Positions 2,117 to 41,982 of a stretch of DNA of 64,000 nt are shown here, one piece after another. Source of the stretch: an uncultured Kiritimatiellota bacterium (GTDB lineage Bacteria > Verrucomicrobiota > Kiritimatiellia > RFP12 > DVOR01); the NCBI GenBank assembly GCA_944389545.1, contig CALXMT010000005.1, positions 1 through 64,000 of the forward strand, read 5' to 3'. The position numbers and the translations under genes were made by a program. Under the pieces are notes generated by a model. It was not told the DNA's origin and did not search any database. It was given only the letters and a program-made list of their open reading frames with translations. Each line of letters starts with the position of its first letter. Position 1 is the first letter of the stretch.

Positions 2117-2919
2117 CGGACGCCCCGGAACAGACGCCTCCCCCCGCGCCCCAGGCCCCCGCGCCCGAAGGCGCGAAACCCGACACGCCGGCAGGCGAGC
2201 CGGACGTCTCCGCCGAGGGTCTGGTGAAGGTCTACGGCACGCGCACGGTGGTCAGCGGCATCTCCATCAACGCCCGGTGCGGTGAGTGCGTGGGGTTGCT
2301 GGGGCCGAACGGCGCCGGCAAGACGACGACCTTCTATATGGTGGTGGGGCTGGTGCGGCCGAACGCCGGCACGGTGCGTTTCCGCGGACAGGACATCACG
2401 CACATGCCGGTCTACAAGCGGGCGCGCATCGGCCTGGGTTACCTGGCGCAGGAGCCGAGCATCTTCCGTCGGCTGAGCGTGGAGGACAACGTCCTGGCCA
2501 TCCTGGAGACCGTGAAGCTCTCCAAGGCCGAGAAGCAGGCGCGGTTGGACGAGCTCCTGACCTCGCTGGGGCTGACGAAGGTGGCGAAGCAGCCGGCCTA
2601 CACGCTGAGCGGCGGCGAGCGGCGCAAGCTGGAAATCGCCCGGGCGCTGGTGCGCAAGCCCGCCATCCTGATGCTCGACGAGCCCTTCGCGGGCGTCGAC
2701 CCGCTGGCGGTGGACGACATCCAGAACATCGTGCGCGGCCTGAAGGCGCAGGGACTGGGCGTCATCATAACCGACCACAACGTGCGCGAGACGCTGGACA
2801 TCGTTGACCGTGCGTACATCGTCTTTGAGGGGCGCGTGCTCTGCGAGGGCACGAGCCGGGAGCTGATCGAGAACCCCGAAGCCAGACACTCTTACCTCGG
2901 CGAAAACTTCCGTATGTGA
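2113..2919 (+). CDS. lptB: LPS export ABC transporter ATPase LptB
   Basis: The 268-residue protein is the cytosolic ATPase that powers LPS extraction with LptF and LptG, which are not in this window. Walker A is GPNGAGKTT (64-72), the ABC signature is LSGGERRKLEIARAL (from 165), Walker B is LMLDEP (186-191), and ITDHNVRETL is the H-loop region. LptB hallmarks such as YLAQEPSIFRRLSVEDN are present. An N-terminal extension of about 34 residues rich in Pro and Ala is unusual for LptB (usually about 240 residues). It begins at the ATGA overlap with lptA. Confidence 0.97.
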   Translation: MTDAPEQTPPPAPQAPAPEGAKPDTPAGEPDVSAEGLVKVYGTRTVVSGISINARCGECVGLLGPNGAGKTTTFYMVVGLVRPNAGTVRFRGQDITHMPVYKRARIGLGYLAQEPSIFRRLSVEDNVLAILETVKLSKAEKQARLDELLTSLGLTKVAKQPAYTLSGGERRKLEIARALVRKPAILMLDEPFAGVDPLAVDDIQNIVRGLKAQGLGVIITDHNVRETLDIVDRAYIVFEGRVLCEGTSRELIENPEARHSYLGENFRM

Positions 2920-2959
2920 AGCCGAGCAACACCAACCCAAGCAGAAAGGCAGGTGCAGC

Positions 2960-3289
2960 ATGACAGTAGAAGTCAATGCCCGTCACAAAAACATTTCCGA
3001 GGCTTTCCGGGAGTACGCCCGGCAGCGCGGCGAACAGATCGGGGAGGCCTTCCCCATGGTCGAGTCGGTCCGCGTGGTGATGGATTTCCAGAACAAACTC
3101 TGCGCCGCTGAGGTCATCGCGCAGCGCAAGGACGAGATGTTCGTGGGCACCGCCAACACCGACACCTCCATGCGGGCCGCCGTCGACATGGCCGCCGCCA
3201 AGGTCGAGACCCAGATCCGCAAGAAACGCGCCAAGGCCTACGTTGAGCCCGCGCGCAAGGCCGCCCAGGCCGCGGAGGCCGCCAAGTAA
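2960..3289 (+). CDS. hpf: short-form ribosome hibernation promoting factor
   Basis: The 109-residue protein has the compact beta-alpha-beta-beta-beta-alpha HPF fold: VEVNARHKNISEAFREYARQ at the N-terminus and a basic C-terminal helix. It binds the 30S decoding region and inactivates ribosomes in stationary phase. It lacks the long-HPF dimerisation domain, so it is the short type found in Gammaproteobacteria. The ATG is preceded by AGAAAGGCAGGTGCAGC. In proteobacteria hpf follows rpoN directly after lptB; here rpoN is absent and hpf follows lptB after a 40-nt gap. Confidence 0.93.
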   Translation: MTVEVNARHKNISEAFREYARQRGEQIGEAFPMVESVRVVMDFQNKLCAAEVIAQRKDEMFVGTANTDTSMRAAVDMAAAKVETQIRKKRAKAYVEPARKAAQAAEAAK

Positions 3290-3304
3290 GGCCCGGAGGC
3301 CATC

Positions 3305-4303
3305 ATGGCCCTGCTCGATCCCCGTCCTTTGACCATCAGCACCGTCCCCGCCGCATCCCTCACGGTGGGGCGCTTCCTGCATGCCGCGCTCGAGCCCCTG
3401 GGGCTGGAGCTGCTGGCGGGGAAGAATGGTCTGAGGCGGGTGATCCTGGAACCCGTGTTGCACCGGCCTGGGCTGGCGCTCACGGGTTTTTACGAGTATT
3501 TCGCCTGGCGCCAGATGCAGCTCTTCGGCCGCTCTGAGATGACCTACCTGCGCACGCTGGACGGCGATTGCCGCCGTGCGCGCTGGCAGGCCCTCCTGCA
3601 GCACGACGTGCCCTGCATCATCCTGTGCACCGCCGAAAAGGAGTCACTGGACGGGGAGCTCTTGGCGATGGCCGACCAGATGGCCGTCCCCGTGCTTGCC
3701 ACGCGCCAGAAGTCCTTCGCGGTCTTCCGCGTGGGGTCGCTCCTCCTGCACGAACTCACCACGCCCCGTGCCACCGTGCATGGGTCCTTGGTGGACGTGC
3801 GTGGCGTGGGCGTTCTCCTCGAGGGGCCGCCCGGCATCGGGAAGAGCGAGACCGCGCTCGGCCTGGTCCGCCACGGCTGTGCCTTGATCGCCGACGACAT
3901 CACCCGTCTGTGGGTGGATGCGCACGGCTCGCTGTGGGGCACGGCGCCGGACCACATGCGCGGCTTCATGGAGATCCGCGGGCTGGGGCTCTTGCACATC
4001 CCCACCCTCTTCGGCATCTCCGCGGTCCGTCCCGAGAGCAGGCTGGAACTCATCGTTTCCCTGCGCCGGTGTGGGCCGGATGACGACATCGACCGCGTGG
4101 GGTCTGACGTCAAGACCTGCGAAGTGCTGGGCCATCCCGTCCAACGTCTCCTGATCCCCGTTGCCGCGGGGCGCGATTTCGTCAACGTGGTGGAGACCGC
4201 CGCCGCCACTTACAAGATGCGGAGCTCCGGCATCGATGCCGCCGCCATCCTTGACGAACAACTCATCTCCCATTACCAATCCGTGGAGCAGCAACATGAA
4301 TGA
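3305..4303 (+). CDS. hprK: HPr kinase/phosphorylase
   Basis: The 332-residue bifunctional enzyme phosphorylates and dephosphorylates HPr on its regulatory serine. The C-terminal catalytic half has the P-loop GPPGIGKS (174-181) and the HprK signature MEIRGLGLLHIPTLFG, followed by the HxR-like segment. The N-terminal half is the variable regulatory domain. Length is close to the usual 310-330. It overlaps the HPr gene by 8 nt, so kinase and substrate are co-translated. With ptsH and ptsI beside it and no sugar permease in view, it probably sets the regulatory state of a signalling PTS. Confidence 0.97.
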   Translation: MALLDPRPLTISTVPAASLTVGRFLHAALEPLGLELLAGKNGLRRVILEPVLHRPGLALTGFYEYFAWRQMQLFGRSEMTYLRTLDGDCRRARWQALLQHDVPCIILCTAEKESLDGELLAMADQMAVPVLATRQKSFAVFRVGSLLLHELTTPRATVHGSLVDVRGVGVLLEGPPGIGKSETALGLVRHGCALIADDITRLWVDAHGSLWGTAPDHMRGFMEIRGLGLLHIPTLFGISAVRPESRLELIVSLRRCGPDDDIDRVGSDVKTCEVLGHPVQRLLIPVAAGRDFVNVVETAAATYKMRSSGIDAAAILDEQLISHYQSVEQQHE

Positions 4304-4574
4304 AGCATCTGTGACCGTCGTTCTCAAAAACAAGTACGGCATGCATGTGCGCCCGGCCGGCCTCTTCGCGAAGACCGCCGCCCGCTACCGCGCCGACGTC
4401 ACCGTCGAGAAGGACGGCATCGTCGTTCCCGGGAAGAGCATCATGGCCCTGATGACCCTCGAGGCCGTCAACGGCACCTCCCTCACCATCCACGCGACCG
4501 GCGAAGAGGCCCAGAAGGCCGTCGCCGAACTCGAGGCCTTGGTGGAGCGCAAGTTCGACCTCCCCGACGAGTAA
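4296..4574 (+). CDS. ptsH: phosphocarrier protein HPr
   Basis: The 92-residue phosphocarrier accepts phosphate from enzyme I on His17 (GMHVRPAGLFAK) and carries a second, regulatory site at Ser48 (VPGKSIMALMTL), the residue HprK would modify. Both sites are intact. The ATG lies inside the end of hprK; the 92-residue form fits HPr, whereas the longer open frame starting at 4161 does not. Confidence 0.97.
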   Translation: MNEASVTVVLKNKYGMHVRPAGLFAKTAARYRADVTVEKDGIVVPGKSIMALMTLEAVNGTSLTIHATGEEAQKAVAELEALVERKFDLPDE

Positions 4575-4593
4575 GCCAAAGGGGGGATCCTGC

Positions 4594-6363
4594 ATGGAGG
4601 AACGCGCCCCGACGCTCTATCGCGGACTCGCCGCCTCCGGGGGGCTCGTCTTCGCCACAGTCGTCCGCTTCGAGGCCCCGAAGGTCCGCGAAGCGCCGCA
4701 CTATACGATCATCCCCGACCAGGCGAACGCCGAGATCGCCCGCTTCTACACCGCCCTGGACAAGGCGCGGCGCGAACTTGTTGAGCTCACGAAGGCCACC
4801 GAGAGCCACGCCTCCTCCACCGAGGCCGGCATCTTCGACAGCCACCTCATGCTCCTCTCCGACACCTTTCTCATCGACCGTGTCGTCAAAGACATCCGCA
4901 ACGACCACGTGAACGCCGAGTGGGCCACCCACCTGGCCTTCGAGTCGCTTGTGGGCATGATGCGCAACATGGGCGATGAGTATCTGCGCGAGCGCGAGGC
5001 CGACCTTCTGGACGTGCGCAACCGCATCATCGGCAATCTGACGGGCGACGGCGGACAACGCGCGATTCCCGTCATCGAGCGTCCCTCGGTCATCATCGCC
5101 GACAACATCTCGCCCTCCGACGCCGTGGCCCTGCCCCGCCGTTACATCCGCGGCATGGCCACCGAGCAAGGCTCCCTCACCGCGCACGTCACGATTCTCG
5201 CGCGCGCCCTCGGCGTCCCGGCGGTGGTGGGCATCGGCCAGAGTCTCAAGGACATCCGCGCCGGCGACGAGGTCGCCCTCGACGGCTTCCATGGGTTGCT
5301 CTGGCACCTGCCGTCCGACGAGATCAAGACCGAGCTCCTCGCCAGCACCGCCCAACAACGCGCCACCCAAGAGCATCGCCGCACGCTGGCGGACCGTCCG
5401 GCCCGCACCTCGGACGGCATTGAGGTCGCCCTCCTGGCCAACGCCGACCACAGCGTGGGCTTTGAGGGCATCAGCGAGCATGGCGCCCAGGGCATCGGCC
5501 TCTACCGCACGGAGTATCTCTGGATCGGTCTTGGGCGCGAACCCACCGAGGAGGAGCAGTTCCGCGCCTACTGCGAGGTGGTGTGCGCCTGCGCCGGGCA
5601 GCCCGTCACGCTCCGCGTCCTTGACATCGGCGGTGACAAGATGGTCGGTCGCAGCCATGTCCACGAGGCGAACCCCTTCCTCGGCAACCGCTCCGTGCGC
5701 TATCTGCTCAACAACCGCGAGACCTTCCGTACGCAAATCCGCGCCATCCTCCGCGCCGCCGTCATGGGCGACTGCTCGCTGATGTATCCCATGATCACCA
5801 CGGTTGAGGAGCTCCGCGCCTGCCGTGCCGTTGTCGAGGAGTGCAAGCGCGAGCTTGAGGAAGAGGGCATGCCCTTCAGCAAGAACATCAAGGAAGGCGT
5901 CATGATCGAGATCCCCGCGGCGGCCCTCCAGGCCGACAAACTGGCCGCCGAATGCGACTTCTTCTCGCTCGGCACCAACGATCTCGTCCAGTATACCTTC
6001 GCCGTCGACCGCGGCAACGAGTCCGTCGCGCACCTCTATCAGCCCCTCCACCCGGTGACCCTCAAGCTGATCGACCACGTGGTCCAAGCCGCCCGCCGGA
6101 ACGATGTCCCGGTGTGCGTCTGCGGCGAGATGGCCTCCGACCCGCTTGCCGCCATTATCCTCGTTGGGATGGGCATCCGCCGCCTCAGCATGTCGGCGAA
6201 CCTCATCCCGCGCATCAAAGAGTTGATTTGCCGCGTCGCTTACTTTGACATGCAGCGCCTTGTCGACTCGCTCCGCCGCGAGGAACCCATCACGGCCGCA
6301 GAAGTCGCGGAACGTTCCCGTGCCATCATCCGCCGCTACGCCGCGGATGTCCTCAACGCCTAA
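4594..6363 (+). CDS. ptsI: PTS enzyme I, phosphoenolpyruvate-protein phosphotransferase
   Basis: The 589-residue enzyme autophosphorylates with PEP and passes the phosphate to HPr. The active-site histidine is His198 in GSLTAHVTILARALG. The C-terminal PEP-binding barrel shows GIGLYRTEYLW, the catalytic-loop segment IEIPAAALQADKLAAECDFF, and FSLGTNDLVQYTFAVDR. Length is typical (570-590). It follows ptsH by 19 nt. No EIIB or EIIC is in the window; the only EIIA is at 10914. Confidence 0.97.
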   Translation: MEERAPTLYRGLAASGGLVFATVVRFEAPKVREAPHYTIIPDQANAEIARFYTALDKARRELVELTKATESHASSTEAGIFDSHLMLLSDTFLIDRVVKDIRNDHVNAEWATHLAFESLVGMMRNMGDEYLREREADLLDVRNRIIGNLTGDGGQRAIPVIERPSVIIADNISPSDAVALPRRYIRGMATEQGSLTAHVTILARALGVPAVVGIGQSLKDIRAGDEVALDGFHGLLWHLPSDEIKTELLASTAQQRATQEHRRTLADRPARTSDGIEVALLANADHSVGFEGISEHGAQGIGLYRTEYLWIGLGREPTEEEQFRAYCEVVCACAGQPVTLRVLDIGGDKMVGRSHVHEANPFLGNRSVRYLLNNRETFRTQIRAILRAAVMGDCSLMYPMITTVEELRACRAVVEECKRELEEEGMPFSKNIKEGVMIEIPAAALQADKLAAECDFFSLGTNDLVQYTFAVDRGNESVAHLYQPLHPVTLKLIDHVVQAARRNDVPVCVCGEMASDPLAAIILVGMGIRRLSMSANLIPRIKELICRVAYFDMQRLVDSLRREEPITAAEVAERSRAIIRRYAADVLNA

Positions 6364-6375
6364 CACCGCCCTGCC

Positions 6376-7896
6376 ATGTTCAAAAAGCTCATCGATTTTT
6401 GCACCGAGACCCTGTGGCGCCACACCTCCACGGGTCACAGGTGGCTCGACCTCCTCCTGCGCCCGCTCCGCTTCATCATCCTCACCGTCCGGAACTGCAT
6501 CCGTGACGGCGCCATGCTCCACGCCTCCGCCCTCACCTATATCACCATGCTCGCCATCGTCCCCGTCCTGGCCTTGGGCTTGACCTCCCTCAAGGCCTTC
6601 GGTGCGGGCGACTTCGCCGAGCAGAAGTTGCTCGGCTCCATCGAGACCATCGTCAGCGCCATCGATGCCGACCCCGAGCCCCAAGCGCCCCCCACGGAAG
6701 CCTCGCAGCCCCCCGCCCAGACGACCGACGGCACGGACGCCGATGCGGAGGCCGAGCCCGGCGCCGCCCCCGCCGGGGAGATCCCCCAGACCAAGCAGAC
6801 CGTCAACGCCCTCCACGCCGTCTGCGTCGCCATCTTCGACCGGATCAACTCCATCAACTTCGCCCAGATCGGCGCCATCGGCGCCGCGGCCCTCATCTTC
6901 ATGGTCATCAGCGTGCTGGGGCGCATCGAGAACTCCTTCAACGCCATCTGGGGCATCCCCAAGCCCAGGTCCATCTGGCGCAAGTTCACCGACTACCTCA
7001 GCGTCATCGTCGTGGCCCCGCTCCTGTTGGTCGCCGCCACGTCGCTCCCCATCCTCAATTCCCTCATCGACATCATCCCCAATCTCTTTGGGTTGCGCAC
7101 CTTCCTCGAGGCCATCGGCATCTTCAGCGCCGTCGTCCCCCTCCTCATCGGCACCCTCCTCCTCGCCTTCCTCTTCAGCTTCCTCCCCAACGAACGCATC
7201 CGCCTCACCAGTTGCCTCCTCGGCGGTTTCCTCACCGTCCTGGCCCTCACCCTCTTCTTCAAGGTCTGCTTCGCCCTCCAGGTGGGCATCGCCAACTACA
7301 GCGCCATCTACGGCTCCCTTGCCGCCCTCCCTGTCCTCCTCTTCTGGATCTACTCCAGCTGGCTCATCATCCTCATCGGCGCAGAGGTCTGCTACGTCCA
7401 CCAAAACCGCTTCGAGCTCTACCGTCAGGAAGCCTTCTCCCACGCCTCCCAGCACGACACCCTCATCTTGGCCCTCGCCCTCACCCTCGAGGCCGCCCGC
7501 GCCACCGAGGAGACCGCCGCTCCCCTTCACCGCCGCGACTTCGCCGAACGCCTCTCGCTCTCCAAGCACGACATCATCCGCGTCGCCACCATCTTGGAGC
7601 GCAAGAAGATCCTCCTCCCCGCCACCGACCCCGCCGCCGACGACGCCCCCGGCTACGTCCTCGCCCGCTGCGCCACCACCCTCACCGTCGCCGACGTCCT
7701 CAACGCCTGCCTCGACGACGCCCCCGGCGAAGGCCTCATCCTGCGAACCGAAACGCTTTCGCCGCCCATCCACCCCATCCTCCGGCACATCGACCAAACC
7801 CTCGCCCAAGCCCTCAGCGCACACTTCGGCGACACCATCGCGACAGTCCTCAAAAAGGCCCGCCAAGAGGCGGAGGCCCCTACCCCGGACAAATGA
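6376..7896 (+). CDS. YihY/BrkB-family inner-membrane protein
   Basis: The 506-residue protein has about six membrane helices and matches the YihY family (once misnamed RNase BN): ALTYITMLAIVPVLALGLTS, FNAIWGIPKPRSIWRKFTDY, LFWIYSSWLIILIGAEVCYV. An Ala/Pro/Glu-rich low-complexity insert at about residues 95-140 splits the first helices. After the last helix (about 345), a 160-residue soluble tail looks winged-helix-like (DFAERLSLSKHDIIRVATIL). Function of the family is not established. Its stop overlaps the start of a pseudopilin gene (ATGA). Confidence 0.88.
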   Translation: MFKKLIDFCTETLWRHTSTGHRWLDLLLRPLRFIILTVRNCIRDGAMLHASALTYITMLAIVPVLALGLTSLKAFGAGDFAEQKLLGSIETIVSAIDADPEPQAPPTEASQPPAQTTDGTDADAEAEPGAAPAGEIPQTKQTVNALHAVCVAIFDRINSINFAQIGAIGAAALIFMVISVLGRIENSFNAIWGIPKPRSIWRKFTDYLSVIVVAPLLLVAATSLPILNSLIDIIPNLFGLRTFLEAIGIFSAVVPLLIGTLLLAFLFSFLPNERIRLTSCLLGGFLTVLALTLFFKVCFALQVGIANYSAIYGSLAALPVLLFWIYSSWLIILIGAEVCYVHQNRFELYRQEAFSHASQHDTLILALALTLEAARATEETAAPLHRRDFAERLSLSKHDIIRVATILERKKILLPATDPAADDAPGYVLARCATTLTVADVLNACLDDAPGEGLILRTETLSPPIHPILRHIDQTLAQALSAHFGDTIATVLKKARQEAEAPTPDK

Positions 7897-8288
7897 CCCC
7901 ACCCCGCAAAAACGCCGGATTCACCCTCGTCGAGCTCGTCCTTGCCATCATCATCCTCGGCGGCGCGCTCACCGTCCTCTATCGCTCCGTCACCCTCAGC
8001 GCCTCCATGGTCCAGGCCTCCCGCGAACGCGAGGAGGTCGCCTATGTCTTCACCCTCGGCGAACTGGAATACCCCATTCGCTCCATCGAGGACCTGGAAA
8101 ACGACGCGGAGGTCTCCCCGGACTCCTCTCTCCTCAAGGGCTACACCTACGAACGGACGCTTGACGAGAAGGAAGACCCGCCCGAAGGGGTCGAGGACGA
8201 CGGCTTGCGCGTCCTTCGCACCACCGTCACCTGGGCCGGCGGCAAGCAACGCCAAGAAATCGTCCGATACATCCGCGAGACCGAATGA
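7893..8288 (+). CDS. pseudopilin, GspI-like
   Basis: The 131-residue protein has a class III (prepilin) signal, KNAG|FTLVELVLAIIILGG, with cleavage predicted after Gly9 and the conserved Glu at +5. The small size and the IxxxLxxAxxxxxxxxE-like helix followed by a compact beta domain fit minor pseudopilin GspI. The prepilin peptidase and assembly ATPase are not in the window. Start overlaps yihY and the stop overlaps the next pseudopilin (both ATGA), so the trio is coupled. A second, larger set lies at 53143-59693. Confidence 0.85.
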   Translation: MTPPRKNAGFTLVELVLAIIILGGALTVLYRSVTLSASMVQASREREEVAYVFTLGELEYPIRSIEDLENDAEVSPDSSLLKGYTYERTLDEKEDPPEGVEDDGLRVLRTTVTWAGGKQRQEIVRYIRETE

Positions 8289-9091: not shown

Positions 9092-9104
9092 GGGCGGCGG
9101 GAAC
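9074..9104 (+). terminator. hairpin spanning the gspJ-like stop codon
   Basis: GTTCCCGCCG (9074-9083) pairs perfectly with CGGCGGGAAC (9095-9104) around an 11-nt loop that contains the stop. There is no T-run, so it may be a weak terminator, an mRNA 3' protector or the edge of the heptamer repeat. Confidence 0.45.
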
Positions 9105-15346: not shown

Positions 15347-15415
15347 AGGGGCGGCGTTGCCGCCCCGGAGAACAGAAAACAGAGAACAGAGAACAGAGAG
15401 CGCCCCTGCGGGCGA
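15347..15415. repeat. GGAGAAC heptamer array with hairpins
   Basis: GGGGCGGCGTTGCCGCCCC hairpin, then GGAGAAC AGAAAAC AGAGAAC AGAGAAC, then GCCCCTGCGGGC. Starts 6 bp after the WXXGXW stop. Confidence 0.85.
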
Positions 15416-15447
15416 CAGAACCGCCGTGTAAATTCTTCTAACAAGCA

Positions 15448-15538
15448 ACGTGATAGGACCAATAGGACATATAGAACACATAGGACGTGACACCCGATCA
15501 AACTTCCAAGCTTCCAAGCTTCCAAACTTCCAATTCGA
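15448..15538. repeat. TAGGACC array followed by CTTCCAAG array
   Basis: ATAGGACCAATAGGACATATA-like units (15452-15488), then four CTTCCAAG/A units (15500-15535). Confidence 0.8.
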
Positions 15539-15552
15539 GGTTCCCCACTCTG

Positions 15553-15922
15553 GCAGTCTTCAGGAGATTCAGGAGATACAGGAGATGCAGGAGCGTCCCT
15601 GCGGGGCGATGGATGAAACCGCCGTGCAAACGGCGTTAGCCGCTGGATTTCCCAGAACCAAAGCGTGGCGTGCGAAGCCCGCCACGCCCCTACAGGCCCT
15701 CGGGCCGGACGTGCGCCTTGCGCGCACGCACGGCCCGCCTTCTGCGTCGCCTACCTTTGTGACTCTTTGTGGTTCTTCATGTTCTTTGTGATTTCCAAAA
15801 CACGGGGCAGTCCTGCCGGCGGCAGCCGGCCCCTAATCGGCTCCAATCGGCGGAATCGGCGGTTTCCCATTCTGGCAGTTTTTGTGACTCTTTGTGTCCT
15901 TTGTGGTAGCCGCGCAGCGTGA
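15553..15922. repeat. composite GGCAGTCC-type mosaic, reverse of the one at 9241
   Basis: CAGGAGATN units, GCGTGGCGTGCGAAGCCCGCCACGC hairpin with a similar text at 9510-9540, TTCTTTGTG units, GGCAGTCCTGCCGGCGGCAGCC and AATCGGCGGAATCGGCGG. Two copies 6 kb apart in opposite orientation could recombine. Confidence 0.78.
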
Positions 15923-23394: not shown

Positions 23395-23520
23395 GGTGTT
23401 TTCGACCTCCCCTAAAGCCCCTTTCTGAGACCCTATAGTGGTCCGAGGTCAACCACTATAGGGGTCGGGGTCGAGACCCTATAGTGGTCGGAGGCGAAAC
23501 CCTTAAGGGTCCGCGAACGC
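23395..23520. repeat. palindrome array with 23-bp period (copy 1)
   Basis: Four palindromes of the CCNCTATAGTGG / CCCTTAAGGG type are centred at 23435.5, 23458.5, 23481.5 and 23504.5, exactly 23 bp apart. The links are GAGGTCGA-like. A degenerate unit (CCCCTAAAGCCCC) precedes them. The array lies between hisA and the htpG promoter. Confidence 0.9.
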
Positions 23521-37965: not shown

Positions 37966-39032
37966 TGGTTCACCTTTTCCTGGGGCCGGACGACTACCTG
38001 AAAAGCGAGGGGGCCAAGCGCCTCATCGATTCGCTTGTCGCGCCCGAGGACCGGGACTTTGGTCTAGAGATCATCGACGGCACGTGCGACAAAGCCGACG
38101 ACGTCTTGCAAGCCATCGATCGGGCGGGTGAGGCGCTCTACACCGCCAGTTTCCTCGGCGGCAACAAGGTCGTCTGGTTGCGCGATGCGAACTTCCTGCC
38201 CGGCGCGAAGGGACGCGCGGTGGAGGCCCAAGCGGCCAAAGACGCCGCGACGGCTTTCTTTGAGGGACTGCAAAAGGACCCCCTCCCGGAAGGCCACACC
38301 CTTGTCATCACGGCAACCGCCTGCGCCAAAATCTCGAAGTTCTACAAGTGGGTCGAGAAGACCGGCAAAATCACGGTCTGCGGCGAGGAGGTCAAGTCCT
38401 ACCAACAGGAAAAGGCCGCGCAGGCGCGTCTGGCCGACCTGCTCCCGCAGTGCGGCCTCAAGATGTCACCCGCCGTGCGCACGGCCTTCGCCCAACGCGT
38501 CGGGTCCGACAGTCGCACCATCGTCTCGGAGCTCGACAAACTTCGCGCTTACCTGGGCAAGGACGGGGCCGAGGTCACCCTGGCCGACATCGAGGCCGTC
38601 ACCTCCACCGCGGTCGGCGCCGAACCCTTCGCCCTCACCGAGGCCATCCTGCAGCGTTCCCCCACCCTTGCCACGAAGACCATCGAGCAACTGCGCGCCG
38701 ACAAAAATGCGGCCTTCCCCGCCGCCGTCGGCATCCTCAACACGCTCAACGATCTCTGTTCGTTGCGCGACGCCCTTGACCAAGGCTGGCTCGCCGGCAA
38801 CCGCTGGGATCTCCCGGCCGACCGTTTGCCCGCCCGCCTGGCCCGCCTCAACGGCTGGTTCCTGGGCAAGCAGATCGAGGCCGCCAAGCGCTACTCCCTC
38901 AACGAGCTCCGCGCGGGTCGCCACTACGCAGTGGAGATGCGCTTCAAGTTGGTGGACACCACCGCGCAAGACCCCTGGGCCATCATCGAGGCCTCCCTCT
39001 TGCGTATCCTCATGCGGAGGGCTCGGACATGA
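37965..39032 (+). CDS. holA: DNA polymerase III delta subunit
   Basis: The 355-residue protein matches HolA, the clamp-opening wrench of the clamp loader: LGPDDYLKSEGAKRLIDSLV, an AAA+-like fold without a working P-loop, and the C-terminal collar domain (IEQLRADKNAAFPAAVGILN). Start and stop overlap neighbours (TGATG with kdsD; ATGA with scpB). The motifs are diffuse, as is usual in this family. Confidence 0.87.
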   Translation: MVHLFLGPDDYLKSEGAKRLIDSLVAPEDRDFGLEIIDGTCDKADDVLQAIDRAGEALYTASFLGGNKVVWLRDANFLPGAKGRAVEAQAAKDAATAFFEGLQKDPLPEGHTLVITATACAKISKFYKWVEKTGKITVCGEEVKSYQQEKAAQARLADLLPQCGLKMSPAVRTAFAQRVGSDSRTIVSELDKLRAYLGKDGAEVTLADIEAVTSTAVGAEPFALTEAILQRSPTLATKTIEQLRADKNAAFPAAVGILNTLNDLCSLRDALDQGWLAGNRWDLPADRLPARLARLNGWFLGKQIEAAKRYSLNELRAGRHYAVEMRFKLVDTTAQDPWAIIEASLLRILMRRART

Positions 39033-39610
39033 GCGACCAGGGAATCCCGCCGCCGAACAGTCTGCAGTCCGTCATTGGCGCCTTGCTCTTCGCCGCCAAA
39101 GAGCCCCTCGCACCGGAGGACCTCAAGAAGGCCCTGCAATCCGCCGCGCAGGGGGCTGACCCGGCCTCTCCCGCCGCCGCGTTCGCCAAAGCCACCCTCG
39201 CGCAAATCAAAACCTATCTCGCGGACATCGCCGCCACCTTGGCACGAAGCGATGTGGGCCTGCGCCTCTGTGAGGAGGGAGGACGTTTCTCTTATCGCAC
39301 CGTTCCGGCCGCCGGGCCGTGGGTGCGCGCCCTCGTCAAGGCCGCCCCACCCCAACGTCTCTCCCGCGCCGCCCTCGAAACCCTGGCCGTCATCGCCTAC
39401 CGTCAGCCCATCTCCCGCGCCGAGATTGAGTCCGTCCGCGGCGTCTCCGTCGACCACACCATCCGCGCCCTCTTGGAACTCGACCTCATCCGCGCCGTGG
39501 GCCGCAGCGAACTCCCGGGCCGTCCCTTCCTCTATGGCACCACGGCCTCCTTCCTGGAGCACTTCGGTCTGCGCAGCTTGAAGGATCTCGACCCCGCGCC
39601 CGAGGCATGA
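39029..39610 (+). CDS. scpB: segregation and condensation protein ScpB
   Basis: The 193-residue protein has the two winged-helix domains of ScpB: SVIGALLFAAKEPLAPEDLK and, diagnostic, RLSRAALETLAVIAYRQPIS followed by RAEIESVRGVSVDHTIRALL. ScpB dimers bind the kleisin ScpA in the SMC condensin complex. scpA and smc are not in the window. It overlaps both neighbours by 4 nt. Confidence 0.95.
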   Translation: MSDQGIPPPNSLQSVIGALLFAAKEPLAPEDLKKALQSAAQGADPASPAAAFAKATLAQIKTYLADIAATLARSDVGLRLCEEGGRFSYRTVPAAGPWVRALVKAAPPQRLSRAALETLAVIAYRQPISRAEIESVRGVSVDHTIRALLELDLIRAVGRSELPGRPFLYGTTASFLEHFGLRSLKDLDPAPEA

Positions 39611-40656
39611 AGCACCTCTACCTGCACTTTCCCTTCTGTACGGGACGTTGCGCCTACTGCGCCTTCCTCTCCGGACCGCCTCCCGCCGCCCCCGCCGCAT
39701 ACGTCGACGACCTCCTGCACGAGGCCGCGGAGCGAGGCTTTTCCTCAGTCGGCCCCCTTGACTCGCTCTACTGCGGCGGCGGTACCCCCGCGTTGCTCGG
39801 CGAGCGCGGCTTTGTACGCCTCCGGGAGTCCGGCCTCTTCTCGCTCGCAGAAGGCGCGGAATGGACCGTCGAGCTCCACCCCGCAGCCGTCACCGAGCCC
39901 CTCGTCCGCACCTTGGCCGACCTCGGTGTCACCCGCCTAAGCATCGGCGTGCAGGCCTTCGATGACGCCACGCTCGTCCGATGCAATCGCCGCCACACCG
40001 TCCGCCAAGCCCTCGACGCCATCGCAATCGCCCGCGCGGCCATCCCGGACACCGGCATCGACCTCATCGCCGGCCTCCCCGGCGTCTCTTCCACAGAATG
40101 GACGCAAACCCTGCGCCGAGCGCTCTCCCTTGACCTCCCGCACATCTCCGTCTACGCCCTCTCCATCGAGCCGGAGAGCACATGGGGGCGTACCGGGATG
40201 TCCACGCCCGACCCGGACGCCCTCTGCGATGCCGTTGCCGAAGCCGCCGACACGCTCTCCGCCGCGGGCCTCCGCCGTTACGAGACCTCCAACTACGCCC
40301 GCCCCGGACTGGAGTGCCGTCACAACCTCAACACCTGGCACGGCGGCGATTACCTCGGCTTAGGACGCGGCGCAGTCAGTCGCTTGGGATGTCTGCGCCG
40401 CACCGGCGATGGCATCGAAGAGACGCTCTCACCCGAAGACGATGCGCTGGAGCGTGCCCTCACCGGCCTCCGCCTCGCCGAGGGGTTCGACCTCGAGGCC
40501 ACCCTCGCCCGCTTCCCCATCCTGGCCCCTTACCGCGAACGTTGGGCCAAACGCCTCGACGACTTCCGCGCCCATGACCTCCTCACCGCCGACAACGCCC
40601 CCACGCGCCGAGGCTACGAAGTCCTCGATGCCATGGAACGGGAACTCTTGCGTTGA
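39607..40656 (+). CDS. hemW: HemW-like radical SAM protein (heme chaperone)
   Basis: The 349-residue protein has the radical-SAM cluster Cys11-x3-Cys15-x2-Cys18 (FCTGRCAYCAF), YCGGGTPALL, and the HemW/HemN segments IGVQAFDDATLVRCNRRHT and DLIAGLPGVS. YETSNYARPGLECRHNLNTW is typical of HemW, which handles heme and differs from HemN coproporphyrinogen dehydrogenase in its N-terminus. Last gene of the dtxR-kdsD-holA-scpB-hemW run. Confidence 0.92.
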   Translation: MKHLYLHFPFCTGRCAYCAFLSGPPPAAPAAYVDDLLHEAAERGFSSVGPLDSLYCGGGTPALLGERGFVRLRESGLFSLAEGAEWTVELHPAAVTEPLVRTLADLGVTRLSIGVQAFDDATLVRCNRRHTVRQALDAIAIARAAIPDTGIDLIAGLPGVSSTEWTQTLRRALSLDLPHISVYALSIEPESTWGRTGMSTPDPDALCDAVAEAADTLSAAGLRRYETSNYARPGLECRHNLNTWHGGDYLGLGRGAVSRLGCLRRTGDGIEETLSPEDDALERALTGLRLAEGFDLEATLARFPILAPYRERWAKRLDDFRAHDLLTADNAPTRRGYEVLDAMERELLR

Positions 40657-40685
40657 AACCTGTGTCCGCAATGCCTGCGGAAGCT

Positions 40686-40838
40686 TTTTTCGCAAAGACG
40701 CAATGCTTGCAGGCAAGGCTTTAAAGACGACCAAGGCGCGAAACGGAGGGCGGCGGTCGCTGTCAGCGGAGAAACCGCAGAGTGACCGACGGAGCCCATC
40801 TGGTTTCGTGCGCACTCGCGTCTTCGCGATCTTCCCCA
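40686..40838. repeat. nested inverted-repeat element, degraded
   Basis: CGCAAAGACGCAATGCTTGCAGG, the GCGCGAAACGGAGGGCGGCGG cassette and CACTCGCGTCTTCGCG remain; the outer TGTCCGGGG ends are lost. Follows hemW by 30 bp. Confidence 0.75.
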
Positions 40839-40894
40839 CTTTCTCCAAATCGCTGACCGTCTCTCGGCAAAAGGGCGGCTCTAACGCCTCTTTT

Positions 40895-41042
40895 GAGCCA
40901 CTCTAAAGGGGGCTTTTGAGACCCTATAGTGGTCCGAGGTCAACCACTATAGTGGTCGAGGGTGAGACCCTATAGTGGTCGGGGTCGAAACCCTTAAGGG
41001 TCTGAGGTCGACCCCTATAGGGTCTCGCGGAGGCCCCTTCTG
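40895..41042. repeat. palindrome array with 23-bp period (copy 2)
   Basis: Five palindromes are centred at 40926.5, 40949.5, 40972.5, 40995.5 and 41017.5 (spacings 23, 23, 23, 22). Units read CCTATAGTGG, CCACTATAGTGG, CCTATAGTGG, CCCTTAAGGG and CCCCTATAGGG. The array lies between the convergent hemW and merR genes. Confidence 0.9.
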
Positions 41043-41048
41043 CATTCC

Positions 41049-41152
41049 AGAAAAAGCACTCGAAACGCAAGGGATGGGAATAGGGAGTGAGGCGCGAAGC
41101 GCCGAACGGTGAAGTGCTCAGGCCCTTGCGTTACTTTGTGTATTCGTGGGAA
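41049..41152. repeat. CACGAAG-type inverted-repeat element, reverse orientation
   Basis: AAAAAGCACTCGAAACGCAAGG to TGTGTATTCGTGGGAAAT; it runs into the 3' end of merR, so the last residues of MerR (SHEYTK) may be encoded by repeat sequence. Confidence 0.78.
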
Positions 41153-41982
41153 ATAGAGGAAGTGAGCCACTTGGGCAGACGGCGCTGAAGAGTGGTCGAG
41201 ACGAGACGTTCGAGGCGGGGCGGGTCGATGGCGAAGTCGCCCGTGAAAAGGTCACGCTCCATCACCACACAATCACCCGCCGGCAACTCAACGTCAGGCT
41301 CAAGAATCCCACGCTGCGCAACTTGGCTCTGCCACCGCGCAGTCGGCAGACGCAGACAACAGTGTGCCGGGAAAGGTTGTACCTCATTCAACGCGATGTC
41401 AACGTAGAGATAGCGCCGCTCGACGCCGTCGCGCCGGATAATGAGCGCGCCGTTGTCGTACCCGATGCGGAGCCGCGCCTTACCCATGGTTTGAAGCAGG
41501 GCGAAATACGCGTCATCCGGGTTCTCCCCGGGCAAGACCGCGCGAATGAAGCACCAATGCGCAGGCACACGAACTTCACCGATTTTCCCGGCGGCCACGC
41601 CCTCGCCTTGGCGTTGCAGGGTTTGCACGGATTGAACCTCCCGCAGCAGCGCACGGGCATGGGCGATCGTGGCACGAAGGCTCTCGATCGCGCCGCCGAG
41701 AAGACGGTCATAGCGGATAACGCCCGCGCCGGTGCCCCCCTGAAGCGCGGCGAACGCCTCCAGCGAGACCCCCGCCCGAACGCACAGTTGGATGGCCTCG
41801 ACAATGCGCAACTGCGACAACGAATAGTGGCGATACCCGGTCCTATGGTCGACCCGCGCAGGCTTGAGAATCCCAAGTTTCTCGTAGTATAGCAACGAGT
41901 TGACGTGGACACCGGTGAGCTTGGAGAAGTCCCCGATGGTGAAAGTCCGAGCCATTGCCGATTTTTTACTTGAGTCCGCCAT
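41131..41982 (-). CDS. MerR-family regulator with GyrI-like effector domain
   Basis: The 283-residue protein has a MerR winged helix (TFTIGDFSKLTGVHVNSLLYYEKLGILKP), a linker helix (about 90-135) and a C-terminal BmrR/GyrI-like domain (about 145-283) that usually binds hydrophobic cations. It is divergent from a MATE exporter 53 bp away and is surely its regulator. The ATG at 41982 sits about 2 nt from the predicted start of transcription and inside the operator; ATG 41955 (MARTFT) is an alternative without a ribosome site. Confidence 0.88.
   Translation of the reverse strand: MADSSKKSAMARTFTIGDFSKLTGVHVNSLLYYEKLGILKPARVDHRTGYRHYSLSQLRIVEAIQLCVRAGVSLEAFAALQGGTGAGVIRYDRLLGGAIESLRATIAHARALLREVQSVQTLQRQGEGVAAGKIGEVRVPAHWCFIRAVLPGENPDDAYFALLQTMGKARLRIGYDNGALIIRRDGVERRYLYVDIALNEVQPFPAHCCLRLPTARWQSQVAQRGILEPDVELPAGDCVVMERDLFTGDFAIDPPRLERLVSTTLQRRLPKWLTSSISHEYTK

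Follow-up and report, generated by a model that had tools for sequence, protein, structure and literature searches.

Pneumococcal BOX elements are high-copy, modular, hairpin-forming intergenic repeats of the form boxA-(boxB)n-boxC, which have no coding capacity and are enriched between convergent genes (PMC3049150). Compared by architecture, the arrays described here resemble BOX in the modular intergenic format, the variable internal units, the hairpins and the convergent enrichment; however, they consist of short dyads on a 23-bp step, their sequence varies between congeners and they are evenly spaced. REP/BIME elements with their RAYT (TnpA_REP) are likewise palindromic extragenic units in small arrays, at about 100 copies and near 3' ends, whereas the units here have an A/T centre and follow one another in a direct 23-bp step. 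No RAYT gene (Y1_Tnp, PF01797) was found in the genome under study by a search that was positive in 5 of 14 control genomes, and the REP-type hairpin of 20-40 nt with a GTAG-type foot is absent, the units being 14-16 bp dyads of the form (A)ACC..GGT(C). A RAYT-mobilised REP/BIME is therefore rejected. Tn7-like ends carry transposase sites of a 22-bp class. Ends of the Tn7, Mu and IS21 type are comparable to the arrays in their repeated sites (22-23 bp here, about 22 bp there) and in the exclusion of nearby copies, known there as target immunity, but the arrays are palindromic, and neither a Y1_Tnp transposase nor, at the sister-only sites examined, a target duplication was found. Neisserial dRS3/NIME mosaics, in which short palindromes likewise recur within intergenic DNA of mosaic make-up, are a possible parallel in format, not in sequence. 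In Escherichia coli, matS, the 13-bp target of MatP, is described as 23 repeats in 800 kb, a short site that recurs along the chromosome and serves its organisation (PMC3330122). As with matS, the distribution of the arrays is non-random, with even spacing in three species, but here arrays of 4-5 dyads lie on all large contigs, whereas matS are single sites in one macrodomain. To our knowledge, arrays of phased dyads, rapid change of sequence and even placement along the chromosome have not been described together in any one family, and a literature search on such repeats in this phylum found nothing.

The window, by which we mean the whole stretch of 64,000 nucleotides analysed, belongs to an assembly of 2.53 Mb in 61 contigs. 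The first-pass annotation was right about five dyads with TATA or TTAA centres: the centres start at 40925, 40948, 40971, 40994 and 41016, which gives steps of 23, 23, 23 and 22 bp, and TRF detected the 23-bp array with a score of 100 (Table 1). Dyad symmetry is perfect in just two of the five units, U2 and U4; in U1, U3 and U5 the outer GACC/GGTC pairs are intact while the inner arms do not match (C against GT, CC against G). The convergent neighbours were borne out as well, with a gene of the radical-SAM/HemN type and one of the MerR type flanking the array, which is positioned beyond the terminator-like hairpin of the left gene. Given that the left gene has this hairpin of its own, it is unlikely that the array merely serves it as a terminator. 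The gene for ScpB, an SMC complex subunit, lies two genes away from the array (39029-39610), which is probably a coincidence.

Table 1. Positions in the window of the array, its units and the neighbouring features.
Feature	Position	Strand	Remarks
Array of five dyad units U1-U2-U3-U4-U5, 23-bp step	40920..41026	+	ends GAGACCCTATA / TATAGGGTCTC are inverted repeats
Unit U1, GACCCTATAGTGGTC	40920..40934	+	imperfect dyad
Unit U2, AACCACTATAGTGGTC	40942..40957	+	perfect 14-bp dyad ACCACTATAGTGGT
Unit U3, GACCCTATAGTGGTC	40966..40980	+	imperfect dyad
Unit U4, AACCCTTAAGGGTC	40989..41002	+	perfect 12-bp dyad ACCCTTAAGGGT
Unit U5, GACCCCTATAGGGTC	41010..41024	+	imperfect dyad; almost an inverted repeat of U1 (94% complementary over 17 nt)
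Decayed sixth unit, 23 bp upstream of U1, CTTTTGAGCCACTCTA vs CTTTTGAGACCCTATA	about 40890..40905	+	
Extent common to other dispersed copies (array and variable flanks)	40866..41071	+	
Second array of the same family, 17.5 kb from the first	23427..23513	+	
Gene to the left, of radical SAM / HemN C-terminal type	39607..40656	+	
Intrinsic-terminator-like hairpin with T run, of the left gene, separate from the array	40665..40690	+	chance expectation: 0.7 sites of this kind
Gene to the right, convergent, for a MerR-type regulator	41131..41955	-	

The array is best read as one copy of a high-copy, lineage-specific, interspersed intergenic element of phased dyads. The unit pattern GACCNNTATANNGGTC, with at most one mismatch, has 108 sites in the genome and the pattern RACCCTATANNGGTC has 246, against 0 for the reversed control in each case, which puts the array far outside what chance would give. 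The arrays located number at least 89 here and at least 122 in the genome of a sister species, G003; the MAG 'uncultured Kiritimatiellaeota bacterium BRZ_KQ__bin80', with at least 77 loci, is almost certainly that same sister, judging from the abundance. Arrays comprise 3-6 units, mostly 4-5 (four in 73 of 115 arrays, five in 30), and the order U1-U2-U3-U4(-U5) is constant among copies. As for the terminal inverted repeats of a MITE, five-unit copies have the ends GAGACCCTATA..TATAGGGTCTC, and four-unit copies end differently. The phasing is real and is maintained across about 115 arrays of this genome and its sister and, on a step of 22-23 bp, in the diverged arrays of three further congeners. 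Among the findings that would count against its reading, the first-pass annotation had named randomly spaced genome-wide copies and a known transposon end. Copies are indeed genome-wide, but their spacing is exact within arrays and even along the chromosome rather than random, and no known transposon end was found to match.

With genes called by a simple custom hexamer-score caller, none of 104 arrays, and none of the 36 in completely read contigs, lies inside a gene. Convergent gaps are favoured (27 of 101 arrays against 15 of 128 other gaps of at least 200 bp, P 0.005) and divergent gaps avoided (13 of 101 against 38 of 128, P 0.002); in the complete contigs the convergent share is 14 of 36 for arrays and 26 of 163 for other gaps. 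The median distance is 166 bp to 3' ends and 381 bp to 5' ends. Arrays show no preferred orientation relative to the genes beside them (same in 30, opposite in 33) or to GC skew (P 0.23), by which replication polarity is rejected. This absence of orientation bias, together with the place beyond gene ends, fits a role at the level of DNA and not of RNA.

The whole element is predicted to form a strong hairpin on both strands (z -5.8 to -7.4), and the complementary arms of the units had been taken as a sign of selection for dyad symmetry. That argument is not supported, given that the inner arms of a unit show no covariation: the partner is GT for AC in 64% and for C in 73%. Covariation of the outer stem was likewise rejected, since flank partners shuffled between copies score alike (7.01 against 7.30), so that the complementarity of the outer flanks reflects the consensus only. 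Selection for intramolecular pairing was also rejected, as arrays recombined from segments fold as well as or better than the real ones. Because pairing partners do not covary, selection at the RNA or cruciform level is not supported. The strong folding on both strands and the location near 3' ends would suit a bidirectional terminator or a 3'-end stabiliser acting through a long hairpin, but such a transcript-level element is very improbable: the neighbouring gene has a separate terminator-like hairpin, recombined arrays fold equally, no Rfam match to the array was found up to E = 1, and an element of this kind would be needed at most genes, not evenly once per about 14 genes.

The chief result is the spacing of the arrays along the chromosome. 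In this genome, 48 within-contig gaps have a CV of 0.57, with 2% under 5 kb against 20% expected, and in the sister 98 gaps (mean 16.4 kb) have a CV of 0.61, with 2% under 5 kb against 26% expected. To remove detection bias, 850 kb of this genome's contigs were read completely, which yielded 36 arrays and 28 gaps with a mean of 20.9 kb, a CV of about 0.42 and a smallest gap of 7.9 kb. Random placement in real gene gaps of these contigs gives a CV of 0.84-0.86 (0.80 when length-weighted, 0.80 when matched for gap type), and one gap under 8 kb was seen where 7-9 were expected (P <= 7e-4 under each null). The array family ranked as the most even of the 42 repeat families that have 20-80 places in these contigs, its single-word entries having CVs of 0.53 and 0.62 and the others 0.6-1.31; an abundant unrelated control repeat was clustered (CV 1.57). 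In the congener G015, which has a different unit sequence, 28 gaps have a mean of 19.5 kb, a CV of 0.38 and a minimum of 7.2 kb, and no pair closer than 7 kb was seen against 4.6-7 predicted by random gene gaps, in stretches that were chosen around arrays. Density is thus about one array per 21-23 kb in this genome, 16 kb in the sister and 19 kb in G015. The exclusion is not absolute, as a few close doublets occur (e.g. C54 1253/1948); by design, neighbours within 300-400 bp of each other were counted as one array, and by our reasoning lost short contigs could conceal only gaps under about 2-3 kb.

In contrast to this regularity, the sequence of the units changes quickly. Related arrays with diverged units, still on a step of 22-23 bp, occur in the congeners G005, G008 (e.g. 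AAACCCTTAAGGGTTT) and G015 (AAACCCTAAGGGGTC/AAACCCTTAAGGGTC). G008 is among the closest relatives, with a marker protein identity of 98%, and its units have nevertheless diverged, indicating that unit turnover is quick. Single pairs had suggested that G015 arrays occupy the same gene gaps as those of the present genome, but overall this was not beyond chance, and array positions are not conserved beyond close species. At C15 54256-54384 in G015, at least six identical 22-bp units with a CCAAACCCTAAAGGGTTCG core run to the contig end, where a longer homogeneous array probably caused the assembly to break. G013, a more distant congener, holds a small number of 23-bp arrays whose palindromes, TTCATACCAGTATGAA and GGCTATAGCC, are quite unlike the others; its 22-23 bp arrays of these units and of a non-palindromic TCGCCCACTTTTG family, which recalls IS21-type ends, lie at L196 725-810, L197 2031-2110, L198 10627-10713 and L199 10842-10923. 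Sequence searches gave no array match in the remaining congeners. The element would therefore be dispensable at the scale of the genus, or else present in most congeners in unrelated sequence.

Between this genome and its sister, many arrays are co-located and nearly identical, and some differ by a unit gained or lost or by a reverse-complement linker (GGGTCG to CGACCC). Fourteen sister arrays could be aligned to the stretches of the present genome that were covered, seven of them shared and 6-7 found in the sister only (one, L105, may be a boundary effect). One sister array of five units (L049 1886-1998) corresponds to a single unit at the same place here (C3 22518-22626), which indicates that arrays contract or expand in place; at other sister-only sites the whole intergenic block differs. 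At L084 1770-2100 and L055 2860-3300, compared with C3 of this genome, everything from the gene end up to the following promoter or terminator has given way to repeat mosaics that are unrelated. Among the aligned gaps and sister-only sites, a small sample, no clean insertion or empty site with target duplication was found, but block replacements or unit loss instead, and sister-only arrays did not significantly avoid the arrays of this genome (P 0.10). The inter-unit linker occurs in both orientations (L083 2406-2491 and L025 5014-5100), which suggests template switching at flanking inverted repeats. A synteny breakpoint between the sister species lies at or near an array, L065 1-1876 matching L027 and 2268-8000 matching L012, with similar hints at L158 and L084. 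Eight sister arrays (L056, L062, L071, L090, L101, L104, L116 and L120) stand after similar gene 3' ends and before a TCGCCTCTTGGCAGGTCGCAGACGTG-like sequence that they have in common, as would follow from duplication of a gene together with its array. Taken together, the congener and sister comparisons show that unit sequences and array locations are replaced from species to species, whereas the format and the regular spacing of the arrays remain.

To account for the even spacing, one must assume either selection that keeps about one array in each domain of about 20 kb or interference between insertions, and the latter can produce it without any function. The units may be transposase-binding sites of a non-autonomous mobile repeat whose copies repel nearby insertions by target immunity of the Tn7/Mu type, so that the spacing would be the footprint of interference and not a host function. 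We give this only a slightly lower probability than the chromosome-domain role favoured below. The exclusion of gaps under about 5-8 kb in three species, the patchy presence in the genus and the unit order common to copies all agree with it, and the 22-23 bp sites recall the 22-bp transposase sites of Tn7-like ends. However, the units are dyads, no autonomous copy or transposase was found in a search of the Y1_Tnp family (this genome lacks a Y1/RAYT transposase), and none of the sister-only sites examined had a clean insertion with target duplication. A pure 7.9-kb hard-core model, moreover, gives a CV of 0.64, and the real value of about 0.43 lies somewhat below it (P 0.03). The bias toward convergent gaps, as seen in parasitic repeats (PMC3049150), is shared by this explanation and by a less probable one, in which a parasitic repeat like BOX or BIME, with neither dedicated function nor immunity, loses its close pairs by recombination between copies. 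High copy number, intergenic location, modularity, hairpin formation (z -5.8 to -7.4) and a convergent bias like that of pneumococcal BOX (PMC3049150) are what such a parasite would have, and it would sit well with the fast turnover of intergenic blocks, with the array that contracted to, or expanded from, one unit, and with the arrays at some synteny breakpoints. Yet other dispersed repeats, in the same genome and under the same recombination, are not evenly spaced, which weakens the purging of close copies as an explanation, and deleting stretches of 5-8 kb would usually remove genes. As for carriers, viral contigs and plasmid and phage collections gave no array match, and mobile carriers were rejected.

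We lean slightly toward a chromosome-domain role over target immunity. The best explanation, to which we give a probability of about 0.36, is an interspersed element of phased dyads that is a candidate protein platform, kept for chromosome organisation. Phased dyads at a constant step are what cooperative binding by a dimeric protein would need, and since the phasing is kept in about 115 arrays and in three congeners, a cooperative protein-binding platform is reasonable, as the first-pass annotation had proposed; another of its suggestions, a single origin or partition site, is made unlikely by about 100 copies. The arrays are probably a platform of this kind, with one about every 20 kb. Their anatomy and spacing are well established, and from them we infer a mechanism in which a dimeric DNA-binding protein would assemble cooperatively on the array, one unit per 23 bp, on a platform that would sit at the ends of transcription units; one array per about 20 kb would be maintained because bound arrays may help to organise the chromosome as domain boundaries, anchors or sites of supercoil management. 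We propose only tentatively that the arrays form a chromosome-organising system, present about once per 16-23 kb chromosome-wide, whose site sequence and locations are quickly replaced between species without loss of array format or even spacing, presumably in step with a binding protein that co-evolves. Against chromosome organisation stand the lack of positional conservation beyond close species, the 6-7 of 14 alignable sister arrays that are absent from this genome, the failure of sequence searches to detect an array in most congeners, and the missing covariation within units.

In bacteria, dispersed repeats tend to be placed in clusters or at random, and the other families of this genome conform to that. 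A family spaced evenly across three species whose unit sequences differ implies an active rule of spacing, be it a domain function or long-range interference between insertions; both possibilities can be tested, and each would be out of the ordinary for a non-coding repeat this small. Kiritimatiellota, a little-studied phylum, thereby gain a DNA element that could be used as bait for a chromosome-binding protein.

The window is also rich in other repeats, with dozens of dispersed word families besides; one word, CAAACCTTCCACGG, has 263 copies in the genome and is clustered. Many intergenic tandem arrays of short period (7-10 bp), of the GTTCTCC, CCAAACTTC, CTCCTGCAT and GTCCTATAG types, lie at 9101, 9189, 15368-15593, 15929, 31767, 31914, 43570, 47880, 48230, 48416, 59847 and 60503.
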